A stretch of DNA of 64,000 nt from Balneola sp. Its GTDB lineage: Bacteria > Bacteroidota > Rhodothermia > Balneolales > Balneolaceae. The notes beneath the pieces were generated by a model. That model was given only the letters and a program-made list of their open reading frames with translations, did not search any database and had not been told where the DNA came from. Shown in pieces: positions 31,828 to 35,276 of this stretch. A program made the translations under genes and the position numbers. The stretch is taken from positions 682,001 through 746,000 of the forward strand of contig RHLJ01000001.1 of assembly GCA_003712055.1 (NCBI GenBank). Direction: 5' to 3'. Position 1 is the stretch's first letter. Each line of letters begins with the position of its first letter.

Positions 31828-32409
31828 ATGATTGAGAACTACCTTGAAAGCGTCCGAAAACAATTCGAGTACTACAAGTTGCTTGGTGAACGAACTTTTG
31901 ACCAATTAGAAGATGAAGACCTGTTCTGGGAGTATAACCCGGAAAGTAATTCCATTGCCATTATCGTGAAGCATTTATGGGGAAATATGCTTTCCCGTTG
32001 GACGGACTTCCTCACTACTGATGGTGAAAAAGAATGGAGAAACCGCGACACCGAGTTTGAGGCAGACATCACCACAAGAGGAGAAATGATGGAAAAATGG
32101 GATGAAGGCTGGACGTGTTTATTTGCTGCCATTAATTCTGTCCATGAAGAGCACTTTGATCAGCTCGTTTACATCCGGAATATGGGGCACACAATACCTG
32201 AGGCAATCAACCGGCAACTTGCTCACTATTCCTATCACATTGGTCAGATTGTATACATCGGGAGAATGAAAAAGGGAGATGCATGGAGAAGCCTATCCGT
32301 CCCAAAAGGCGGAACCGCTGCCTATAATGCTGAGAAGTTTAGTAAGGGAAAACGGAGAGCTCACTTTACGGATGAATTGATGGATAATGACAATAAAAAC
32401 CAAGGATAA
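31828..32409 (+). CDS. DUF1572/DinB-superfamily protein
   Basis: This is a 193-aa four-helix-bundle protein. The three metal-binding histidines of the DinB fold are visible: H49 (VKHLWGNM) and H133 and H137 (LAHYSYHIGQIVY). NSIAIIVKHLWGN and GDAWRSLSVPKGGTAAYN are typical of the DUF1572 branch. The role is unknown; relatives include thiol transferases and hydrolases using bacillithiol or mycothiol. It is divergent from the desaturase-like gene across 54 bp and converges on polA, with a REP-like pair between. Confidence 0.85.
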   Translation: MIENYLESVRKQFEYYKLLGERTFDQLEDEDLFWEYNPESNSIAIIVKHLWGNMLSRWTDFLTTDGEKEWRNRDTEFEADITTRGEMMEKWDEGWTCLFAAINSVHEEHFDQLVYIRNMGHTIPEAINRQLAHYSYHIGQIVYIGRMKKGDAWRSLSVPKGGTAAYNAEKFSKGKRRAHFTDELMDNDNKNQG

Positions 32410-32515
32410 GTCATCCTGAACTTGATTCAGGATCTTTATAGAGCCCATTAAAGAGTGTTACCTATTAAGCAAATCAAAGCTAATTCATAAGATTCCGAAA
32501 CAAGTTCGGAATGAC
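32409..32515. repeat. Inverted pair of REP-like hairpins with compensatory stem changes
   Basis: On the plus strand, GTCATCCTGAACTTGATTCAG (its last bases at 32410-32430, then GATCTT) forms ATCCTGAA/TTCAGGAT (32413-32420 with 32426-32433). On the minus strand from 32515, GTCATTCCGAACTTGTTTCG (then GAATCTT) forms ATTCCGAA/TTCGGAAT (32505-32512 with 32492-32499). Four of their five differences fall as two compensating base pairs in the stem. The pair lies between the convergent DinB-like and polA genes and may also help end transcription. Confidence 0.7.
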
Positions 32516-32522
32516 TAAAGTC

Positions 32523-35276
32523 CTAATGCGCCTCTAACCAATTATCTCCAATCCCGGCTTCTACTTTTAGTGGCACATCCATTGCGAAAGCCCCTTCCAT
32601 TAACGCTTCAATTTTAGCTGGCACCTCGTCCAGTTCGCTTTCATGGATTTCAAAAATCAATTCATCATGAACCTGTAAAAGCATCCGGCTTTTTTTGTTG
32701 TTGGATTGTAGCCAGTTATGAATATGAATCATCGCCAGCTTAATAATATCTGCCGCAGTTCCTTGAATAGGCATATTGATGGCAACTCGTTCTGCAAAAC
32801 CTCTTTTCGTCCAGTTACTCGAATTGATATCCGGGATATATCTTCTTCTGCCAAGCAGAGTTTTTACATACCCATGCTCTTTTGCAAATACTTGGGTCTC
32901 TGTAATATAGTTCTGGATATTAGGAAAGCGATTAAAGTACTCATCAATCATCTCCTTACCCTCACTATTTTCGATTCCAAGATTTTGGGCAAGTCCATAG
33001 GCACTTAATCCATAAGGAATACCAAAATTTACTTCCTTAGCTTTGCGCCGGTGGTCTTGCGTCACTTCATCCAGTGAATCTAGATGAAAAATCTCCTTGG
33101 CTGTGCGAGCATGAATATCCTCTCCTTGCCGGAAGGCTTCGATCATCGCTTCATCTTTGGCGATATGGGCAATTACCCGAAGTTCTACTTGCGAATAATC
33201 AGCTGACATAATCTTAAATCCTTCCTCGGCAATAAATGCTTTTCGGATTTCCCTTCCTCTTGCTGTTCGGATTGGAATGTTCTGGAGATTGGGATTGGAT
33301 GAAGCCAATCTACCAGTCGCTGCTACGCTTTGATTGAAGTCGGTATGTACACGGTTAGTGTCTACATTTATCATCGAAGGCAGAGCATCTACATAGGTAG
33401 ATTTAAGCTTAGCCAGAGAGCGGTATTCCAGGATCAAGCTTGGAATCTCATATTTAACTGCAAGTTTTGTGAGCACAGCTTCATTGGTAGAGTATTTCCC
33501 GGTTTTAGTTTTCTTTCCTGCCGGCAATCCGAGTTTATCAAATAATATATCTCCTAACTGAGCAGGAGAATTGATATTGAACTCCTGCCCTGCTTTTTCG
33601 TAAATCTCAGCCTCTAGCTTTCGAATGTCTTGCTCCAATTCTCCAGAAAAGCTTACAAGCATATCCTCATCTAATCGAATCCCCTGGAATTCCATATCCC
33701 CCAACACTTCCATAAGTGGGAAATCAACCTGATCCGATACCTCGTTAAGTTCATCTTCTTTCATCTTCTTACTTAACACTTGATAAAGTTGGAGAGTAAT
33801 ATCTGCATCTTCACAAGCATAGAGATAAACTTCCTCAGGAGTTAAATCCGCCATCGACTTCTGAGCTTTTCCTGTCCCTATCAAATCAACAATTGGTACT
33901 GGTTCATAACCCAGGTACTTTTTTGAAAGCTCATCCATTTTGATTTTCTGGCTCGCATCTACCAGATAAGCAGCAACCATGGTATCAAAAGGTCTACCGT
34001 GTATACTTATACCATGCCTGGACAGAATGGTATAATCGAATTTATAATTATGGGCAACCTTCAGCGAGTCTTCATTTTCAAATAATGGCCTTACTAACTC
34101 TAATACTTCTTTCTCATTTAGACCTCCTGCAACATTAACCGGGATATAGTATCCAGTTCCGGGATTTAAGGAGAATGAAAGCCCCACCATACCAGCAGAA
34201 ATTGGATCCGGAGAATCAGTCTCACTATCAAAACAAAGAACCTTTGCCTTCTCTAATTCTTTGACGAGTTCCTTAACCCGATCTATGGAATTTACAAGCT
34301 CATAGTTATTATTCTCAGTATCCAGCTTTTTCAGCTCTTCCTGCTCTCCAATTGAACCAAACAGATCTACTTGGTCACCTGACTTTTCAGCTACTGGCCC
34401 CTGCTCTCCTAAATACTTTCTGGTTAAGGTTCTAAACTCCATCTTTTTGAAGAATAGTCCGAGATCCTTTTTTTCAAAAGAACTCCATACCAGCTGCTCC
34501 CAATCAGCGGTATCTGGCACATCGGTTTTAATAGTAACCATAAACTTGGCATGCATTGCCTGATCAGCGAATTCTTGCAGCCCCTCACGTTGACGTTTGG
34601 CCGTTATGGCATCAGCCTGAACAATACATTCTTCCAATGATCCAAATCGTTCAATTAAGGCCGGAGCTCCCTTTTTCCCAATTCCCGGAACGCCAGGTAT
34701 ATTATCAACGGTATCTCCAAGAATGGCTAACACATCGATAACTTTCTCTGGATATACCCCGAAATACTCTTTCACCCCTTCTCTATCGACAATATCGAAT
34801 CCCCCATCTTTATTATTTGGCTTCATCATTTTAATATGGTCATGAACCAACTGCATAAAGTCTTTATCAGGGGTAACTAGCATCACATCTACATCATCTG
34901 CATTCGCGTTCGAAGCAATAGTACCTATGATATCGTCGGCTTCAAATCCATCTTGTTCAATATTCTTTATTCCCCAGGCCTCCAACATCTCCTTAATAAG
35001 GGGAATACCAATCGTTAGTTCCTCAGGTTGAGGAGGTCGCTGAGCCTTATAAGATTCGTCCTTAATATGCCTAAAAGTTGGAGCATGGGTATCCCAAGCC
35101 ACTGCAATATGAGTAGGTTTTTGCTCATCCAACATCTTCTCTAATGTATTAGCAAAACCAAGTACAGGACCTGTAGGAATCCCTTTACTGTTTTTAAGAT
35201 TTGCATTTATGAATGCAAAATGAGCACGGTAAGCCAGTGCCATACCATCCAGTAGAAAGAGAAGTTTTTTGGACAT
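32523..35276 (-). CDS. polA: DNA polymerase I
   Basis: This is a 917-aa protein with all three domains. The 5'-3' exonuclease fills about residues 1-290 (LLDGMALAYRAHFAF, VTPDKDFMQLV, DNIPGVPGIGKKGA). The 3'-5' proofreading domain keeps FDSETDS, AHNYKFD and YACEDAD, so its metal ligands look intact. The polymerase domain has motif A SADYSQVELRV, motif B RRKAKEVNFGIPYG and motif C LLQVHDELIFE. It fills gaps in repair and removes RNA primers. The start ATG at 35276 is well supported by the exonuclease N-terminus. It is divergent from the phosphatase gene across 154 bp. Confidence 0.97.
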   Translation of the reverse strand: MSKKLLFLLDGMALAYRAHFAFINANLKNSKGIPTGPVLGFANTLEKMLDEQKPTHIAVAWDTHAPTFRHIKDESYKAQRPPQPEELTIGIPLIKEMLEAWGIKNIEQDGFEADDIIGTIASNANADDVDVMLVTPDKDFMQLVHDHIKMMKPNNKDGGFDIVDREGVKEYFGVYPEKVIDVLAILGDTVDNIPGVPGIGKKGAPALIERFGSLEECIVQADAITAKRQREGLQEFADQAMHAKFMVTIKTDVPDTADWEQLVWSSFEKKDLGLFFKKMEFRTLTRKYLGEQGPVAEKSGDQVDLFGSIGEQEELKKLDTENNNYELVNSIDRVKELVKELEKAKVLCFDSETDSPDPISAGMVGLSFSLNPGTGYYIPVNVAGGLNEKEVLELVRPLFENEDSLKVAHNYKFDYTILSRHGISIHGRPFDTMVAAYLVDASQKIKMDELSKKYLGYEPVPIVDLIGTGKAQKSMADLTPEEVYLYACEDADITLQLYQVLSKKMKEDELNEVSDQVDFPLMEVLGDMEFQGIRLDEDMLVSFSGELEQDIRKLEAEIYEKAGQEFNINSPAQLGDILFDKLGLPAGKKTKTGKYSTNEAVLTKLAVKYEIPSLILEYRSLAKLKSTYVDALPSMINVDTNRVHTDFNQSVAATGRLASSNPNLQNIPIRTARGREIRKAFIAEEGFKIMSADYSQVELRVIAHIAKDEAMIEAFRQGEDIHARTAKEIFHLDSLDEVTQDHRRKAKEVNFGIPYGLSAYGLAQNLGIENSEGKEMIDEYFNRFPNIQNYITETQVFAKEHGYVKTLLGRRRYIPDINSSNWTKRGFAERVAINMPIQGTAADIIKLAMIHIHNWLQSNNKKSRMLLQVHDELIFEIHESELDEVPAKIEALMEGAFAMDVPLKVEAGIGDNWLEAH

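Follow-up and report, generated by a model that had tools for sequence, protein, structure and literature searches.

GTC-tagged REP hairpins and the small GIY-YIG nuclease gene that they bracket in Balneola and other bacteria

The closest described relatives of the repeat reported here are the CGTC-tagged REPs, which include dRS3 of Neisseria and RPE-4/RPE-6 of Rickettsia (PMC3733652; Di Nocera et al., 2013). As defined in the accessible text of that paper, they have a stem of 8-9 bp that starts with a complementary AT, a loop of 4-5 bases and a short tail that is mostly CCA. The same text describes CGTC palindromes in five phyla, without a dedicated transposase and with RAYT genes that are not flanked by them (PMC3733652). 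A subclass of RAYTs in Bacteroidetes is described, in the accessible part of another paper, as flanked by atypical structures (PMC6006769). GIY-YIG and RAYT both occur in two further papers (PMC9465073 and PMC10928387). Our literature search, with preprints and most subscription papers outside its coverage, found, among the titles listed, no paper joining GIY-YIG genes with REP repeats; within the same limits, there was no match for GIY-YIG together with ‘repetitive extragenic palindromic’ and none for GIY-YIG together with UPF0213.

We analysed a stretch of 64,000 nucleotides from the genome of a Balneola sp. (the window). It contains an inverted pair of hairpins, 106 bp in total, between two genes:

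31828..32409, + strand: DUF1572 (DinB-like) gene; context, outside the element
32410..32435, + strand: left hairpin; GTC foot, 8-bp stem ATCCTGAA/TTCAGGAT, loop CTTGA, tail CT; pattern match with zero mismatches
32436..32489, no strand: spacer of 54 bases between both hairpins; nuclease ORF absent
32490..32515, - strand: right hairpin; GTC foot on the outer side, 8-bp stem ATTCCGAA/TTCGGAAT, loop CTTGT, tail CT; pattern match with zero mismatches
32523..35276, - strand: polA (DNA polymerase I); context, outside the element

The two hairpins are 26 bases each, GTCATCCTGAACTTGATTCAGGATCT at 32410-32435 on the + strand and GTCATTCCGAACTTGTTTCGGAATCT as the reverse complement of 32490-32515. In both, the stem is paired at 8 of 8 positions and the loop has 5 bases. 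Their five differences comprise a C-G versus a T-A stem pair, a T-A versus a C-G stem pair and one loop base (A/T). The initial annotation had described two 27-base copies in opposite orientation with five differences, four of which form two swapped stem pairs. Direct reading of the sequence agrees on both counts, the 27-mer being the 26-mer plus the next outer base, A. The placement between convergent genes is also correct: DUF1572 is on the + strand and polA on the - strand, so the two genes converge on the hairpin pair. The TAA of the DUF1572 gene abuts the left hairpin, and the polA stop codon lies 7 bases beyond the end of the right hairpin. The hairpin pattern has two matches in the window, with 0.06 expected by chance. 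A generic repeat finder run on the window missed the pair, and Rfam gave zero matches at this site at E up to 1.

The hairpins belong to a large family in the genome. Across its 3.63 Mb, the pattern with up to 3 mismatches has 48 matches on the + strand and 48 on the - strand, compared with 1 and 2 for a reversed-pattern control. We sampled 61 stretches around these matches and scanned them for hairpins, which yielded 33 inward-facing dyads (66-389 bp) and 25 unpaired hairpins; five stretches had none. Many of the 33 dyads have unlike stems. Stem pairing was examined in 82 hairpins (38 distinct) from matches chosen with three stem positions per side left free. The pair at 0-based positions 5-21 is Watson-Crick in 80 of the 82 (56 C-G, 16 G-C and 8 T-A), that at 7-19 in 81 of the 82 (41 T-A and 40 C-G), and that at 6-20 is nearly invariant. 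In the distinct hairpins, 73 of 76 pairs match, a level reached by none of 10,000 permutations. The 96 genomic matches, the dimeric dyads and the co-varying stems bear out the earlier description of the pair as a REP-like inverted repeat; the opposite outcome, no more copies or unconserved stems, did not occur. The annotation had further read the swapped pairs as a sign of selection for structure. Stems do co-vary genome-wide, which fits selection on the hairpin, but it is equally compatible with templated correction that keeps quasi-palindromes matched.

Several variants accompany the main kind of dyad. A second kind, with a spacer starting GTAG, GTGG or GTGA and a stem that is often CCCGGA, is intermixed with it in this genome (L051, L054, L068, L069, L083). 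Five dyads (L080, L081, L088, L096, L045) have about 75-90 bp of DNA beyond the hairpins in common, and another inverted repeat, around GTCAGGTAATTCG, marks where it stops. These dyads (164-248 bp) share DNA beyond the hairpins and may therefore have moved as a larger unit; the dyad in them seems to be nested in another repeat element that was copied whole. In other hairpins (L042, L057, L062, L074, L076, L079, L115), the loop holds another palindrome, often near CCTGTGCTGAACTTGATTCAGTAT, as if the loops were insertion points.

The longest copies carry a gene. A 96-codon ORF is present in each of the two longest dyads and at a third site, whose 3' arm is truncated, and the three 96-aa products score 58, 51 and 61 bits against the Pfam GIY-YIG family (PF01541), for which the cut-off is 22.6. 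There are ten GIY-YIG places in this genome, three of them bounded by the hairpin family of the window. By eye, four other small GIY-YIG genes lie near other inverted GTC-type repeats, and no such repeats were seen beside UvrC, a 291-aa GIY-YIG protein or a GIY-YIG pseudogene. Residues Y7, Y18, R28, E65 and N84 are invariant across ten diverse members of the nuclease family; we take these Tyr, Tyr, Arg, Glu and Asn positions to be the catalytic residues of a GIY-YIG nuclease. The full element of ~389 bp consists of a hairpin, subterminal sequence with a promoter-like leader, the ~96-aa single-domain GIY-YIG gene, further subterminal sequence and a second hairpin. Dyads of 217-248 bp resemble decayed or deleted versions of it, and dyads of ~107 bp retain the ends alone. 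At 14 nuclease loci, Rfam gave only four matches, all under the gathering score.

The short copies share more than hairpins with the full element. We compared 16 dyads of 100-112 bp (32 arms), excluding row L043 (79 bp) and L045, L080, L081, L088 and L096. Conservation in these short dyads is 0.12 bits per base in the outer flanks, 1.56 in the hairpins and 0.41 in the first 12 inner bases. Seven of the 32 arms match the subterminal motifs of the nuclease element at 7 or more of 8 positions, where 0.4% per arm would be expected, and many short copies look polar by eye, with one end of each kind. Hairpins and subterminal motifs are common to the short copies and the GIY-YIG copies, as in a MITE-type relationship; the resemblance is weak for the window copy, with 5 and 6 of 8 positions in the left arm of the spacer and 3 and 2 of 8 in the right arm (row L052).

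The association between hairpin and nuclease holds in related genomes. A search with the nuclease gave 60 places, spread over 17 of 38 genomes (the Balneola genome included); in 92 family genomes, 43 places have an E of up to 1e-24. We analysed the flanks of 34 of these close homologues: a hairpin lies within 200 bp on both sides in 27, on one side in 7 and on neither side in 0. In the 27 doubly flanked loci, GTC points outward in 15, inward in 11 and is mixed in 1. One genome (G007) has a nuclease copy with GTC inward, yet five short dyads in it have GTC outward. On a tree of 35 nuclease proteins, hairpin orientation changes 4 times, compared with 12.1 times after shuffling, indicating that orientation follows the nuclease tree. 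With hairpins counted by the pattern with up to 1 mismatch in the 92 family genomes, the close nuclease (E up to 1e-24) is present in 18 of 30 genomes with at least 5 hairpins, versus 3 of 62 others. A Fisher test gives p = 1.2e-8, which is indicative only, because the threshold of 5 was set once the counts were known and the genomes are relatives of one another. In 12 of the 30 hairpin-rich genomes, one with 101 hairpins (G092) among them, no nuclease was found at E up to 1e-24.

Among the more distant homologues in the family, at 35-49% identity, most have no hairpin by the strict finder (L107, L109, L123, L127-L129, L135, L136, L138-L140, L143-L157, L159-L162), and many of them are flanked, by eye, by other, less regular inverted repeats. 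When the two flanks were compared for similarity with no GTC foot presupposed, related repeats, scoring higher than the 98th percentile of distant control flanks (32 for the family and 67 for the others), lie on the two sides of the gene at 37 of 50 loci in the family and at 53 of the 77 others. The flank hairpin counts used a next-base filter; unfiltered, the finder gave 3 matches in the window, compared with 7 in its reversed sequence.

Beyond the family, an alignment of ten nucleases was scanned against the genome_contigs collection. It found at least 562 relatives, of which the best 80 loci, picked by protein similarity alone, were analysed, so that the sample leans towards the query. In these 80 loci, all from other genomes, hairpin density is highest at the nuclease gene. 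The nearest 100 bp hold 53 hairpins on the upstream side (79 loci) and 52 on the downstream side (80 loci); more than 500 bp away, each 100-bp bin has 0-2 hairpins upstream and 0-3 downstream. Among the 77 of these best 80 loci with 200 bp on either side, hairpins flank the gene on both sides in 37 and are missing from both sides in 14. The 37 doubly flanked loci come from 12 phylum-level groups (one assigned from a record title only) and one unclassified record. GTC hairpins therefore bracket a GIY-YIG nuclease in 12 phylum-level groups.

The structure that emerges differs in parts from each of the known systems. It is like REPINs and GTAG REPs in that short inverted hairpin dimers, presumed to be non-autonomous, are scattered between genes, but the GTAG/GTGG foot is missing and the RAYT loci analysed are not bracketed by these hairpins. 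It is like MITEs in that short derivatives retain the ends of a longer coding element; unlike in MITEs, these ends are self-folding hairpins, no consistent target duplication was seen, and the coding copy has a nuclease instead of a DDE transposase. The use of a GIY-YIG nuclease by a mobile element recalls I-TevI and I-BmoI, which are GIY-YIG homing endonucleases, although here the intron or intein and the separate DNA-binding domain are absent and REP-type hairpins form the bounds. The sole solved sequences matched at E up to 0.01 are single-domain GIY-YIG proteins of the UPF0213 type (PDB 1zg2 and 1ywl), whose entries, in their accessible content, state no link to repeats. The CGTC-tagged REPs as described in PMC3733652 are closest, sharing the GTC foot, the 8-bp stem starting AT, the 5-base loop and the many intergenic copies, as well as dimers whose partners are often unlike in stem (33 dyads at 61 sampled sites here). 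The foot is GTC in 30 of 32 arms and ATC in 2. The preceding base is variable (A 15, G 9, C 4 and T 4 of 32 arms), hence our term GTC-tagged instead of strict CGTC. The tail is CT in 31 of 32 arms and CC in one, unlike the mostly CCA tail of the definition in PMC3733652. A GIY-YIG gene is bracketed here, while GIY-YIG is absent from the main text of PMC3733652, which describes no transposase gene. We therefore regard the feature in the window as a new variant, a GTC-tagged, CGTC-like REP dimer.

The leader of the nuclease gene may bear on when it is expressed. Nuclease ORFs of this lineage are often preceded by TGTAAGG-N17-TCTTAC, which in the clade of the window lies a few bases before the start codon. 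A looser form of the motif precedes 32 of 52 distinct family ORFs and is found in 0 of 85 control stretches and at 0 of 80 loci in other genomes. In the Balneola genome, the motif with a spacing of 14-26 has 11 matches versus 1 in the control; with one mismatch and fixed spacing, there are 26 versus 7. Genes behind the motif (for example at L305, L311, L318 and L323) include ssb, a ChlI-domain gene, radC, a DNA/RNA non-specific endonuclease, DUF559, PDDEXK_3 and the RAYT, in addition to two 23S IVP genes and six small GIY-YIG genes; the remaining ones are unnamed or possibly chance matches. The ChlI-domain gene is presumably ComM-like, judging by its domain match. We rejected the leader as a general feature of the element and, given its absence at the 80 loci elsewhere and its presence before other genes, read it as a lineage-specific promoter. 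It is perhaps the promoter of an alternative sigma factor linked to DNA uptake. That ssb, the ComM-like gene and radC share it suggests that the nuclease may be expressed upon uptake or repair of single-stranded DNA, and that the motif-bearing genes may belong to a common regulon that serves DNA uptake or the handling of single-stranded DNA. The motif is absent, within 3 mismatches, from the dprA locus, where dprA sits behind another gene; a ‘competence regulon’ is therefore a suggestion only.

Comparisons of alleles were used to look for traces of movement. At the orthologous locus of one genome (G002) the hairpin is absent, but the intergenic DNA is unrelated; in another (G001) there is no hairpin beside polA, but again the intergenic DNA is unrelated. 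On plasmids, the unfilled allele in two Sphingobium plasmids and one Sinorhizobium record is a single near-symmetric palindrome made of the outer hairpin halves, so that hairpin-nuclease-hairpin in one replicon faces a lone palindrome in its relative (L252 versus L254 and L256; L250 versus L253). In a third Sphingobium plasmid, the unfilled allele is unrelated DNA. One plasmid record annotates the nuclease as excinuclease ABC subunit C, a mislabelling. The lone palindrome at the plasmid sites could have arisen by slippage or could itself be a target. The two plasmid cases and six syntenic 50-kb blocks, where alleles were collapsed or replaced, gave no clean empty site, and no consistent target duplication was seen by eye in the flanks of the 61 sampled sites. 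Our case for mobility follows from the copy number, the unrelated flanks and the shared ends.

On balance, we consider it probable that the pair is a non-autonomous, MITE- or REPIN-like 106-bp derivative of a small mobile element that encodes the GIY-YIG nuclease. Internal deletion of the ~389-bp element would have produced the copies of ~217-248 bp and then those of ~107 bp, with the hairpins kept and the ends kept in part. Mobilisation of the hairpins by the nuclease would be the most likely mechanism. GIY-YIG enzymes cut DNA; to our knowledge, they have no DNA-joining activity. In a possible mechanism, the nuclease would recognise the hairpin as folded single-stranded DNA and cut at or near it, host repair or recombination would copy the bracketed DNA to new sites, and the nuclease may act in trans on the short copies. 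Several points count against the derivative reading: the lack of a clean empty site and of a consistent target duplication, the 12 of 30 hairpin-rich genomes in which no nuclease was found at E up to 1e-24, the differing GTC orientation, the many distant family homologues and the 14 of 77 loci elsewhere that have no such hairpin, the weak spacer ends in the window, the lack of a known joining activity and the dyad beside the RAYT of this genome.

That dyad belongs to the argument for the proposal of the initial annotation, a REPIN mobilised by a RAYT (TnpA_REP), which now looks improbable. The genome does have one RAYT above the NCBIfam cut-off (NF047646), as the annotation had led us to look for, 157 bp downstream of the stop codon of this gene there is a divergent GTC dyad that holds nested palindromes, and the inverted dimers look like REPINs. 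However, among 12 RAYT loci tested (10 above the cut-off and 2 below), a GTC hairpin lies within 1.5 kb at only 2, this RAYT and one adjoined by a GIY-YIG gene; the gene that the hairpins bracket is the small GIY-YIG nuclease. The cut-off is passed in 10 of 38 genomes (this one included), and G007 has 30 hairpins with zero RAYT matches. The GTAG/GTGG foot is absent, and by eye the RAYT of this genome carries inverted flanks of its own that differ from the GTC hairpins. Following the search in 38 genomes, the Balneola genome included, and the test at 12 loci, the RAYT was rejected as the main partner. A partial second copy of its reading frame lies upstream of the intact one (L033 64-396), and in length and motifs it is similar to the Bacteroidetes RAYT subclass, as far as the accessible text of PMC6006769 describes it.

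A different relation between hairpin and nuclease is conceivable, in which the hairpins spread otherwise and small GIY-YIG genes, as homing-type parasites, exploit the repeats by cutting REP hairpins and inserting within or next to them. GIY-YIG homing endonucleases are an established class, the gene-less form at the two plasmid sites is the near-symmetric palindrome of outer hairpin halves, and several copies hold other palindromes within a hairpin loop. We nevertheless regard this as unlikely: the two stems of an element are often unlike, though each pairs perfectly within itself, which is not what insertion into a symmetric palindrome gives, the subterminal sequences of the nuclease element recur in several short copies, and slippage between the two arms would equally give the collapsed form. 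We attach still less weight to the view that the pair is mainly an RNA element, a bidirectional 3'-end or mRNA-stabilising structure whose copying is ancient and now inactive. A rough open-frame test of 58 hairpin sites found 16 convergent, 27 tandem, 3 divergent and 12 unclear, so gene ends are favoured, and, with DNA parameters, the fold of the 116-base strand is better than that of every one of 200 shuffled sequences (z -3.5); in its best fold, the two hairpins pair with each other. Yet neither hairpin is followed by a T-run and the terminator scan found no intrinsic terminator at either, and the nuclease genes within full copies and the shared ends would be left unexplained.

The link between hairpin and nuclease is the main result of our study. 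It may have a wider meaning, which we put forward tentatively, as somewhat short of an even chance: GTC REPs across bacteria could be the ends and deletion relics of an unrecognised minimal element whose sole gene encodes a ~96-aa GIY-YIG nuclease acting on folded single-stranded DNA hairpins, and which in the lineage of the window would be switched on with a regulon for DNA uptake or single-stranded DNA handling. Such an element could be a unit of mobility that has a single gene and for which no joining activity is known. If this is true, the enzyme that the CGTC REPs lack would come from the nuclease element, and the small, widespread nuclease bracketed by such hairpins is a concrete, testable candidate for their absent transposase.
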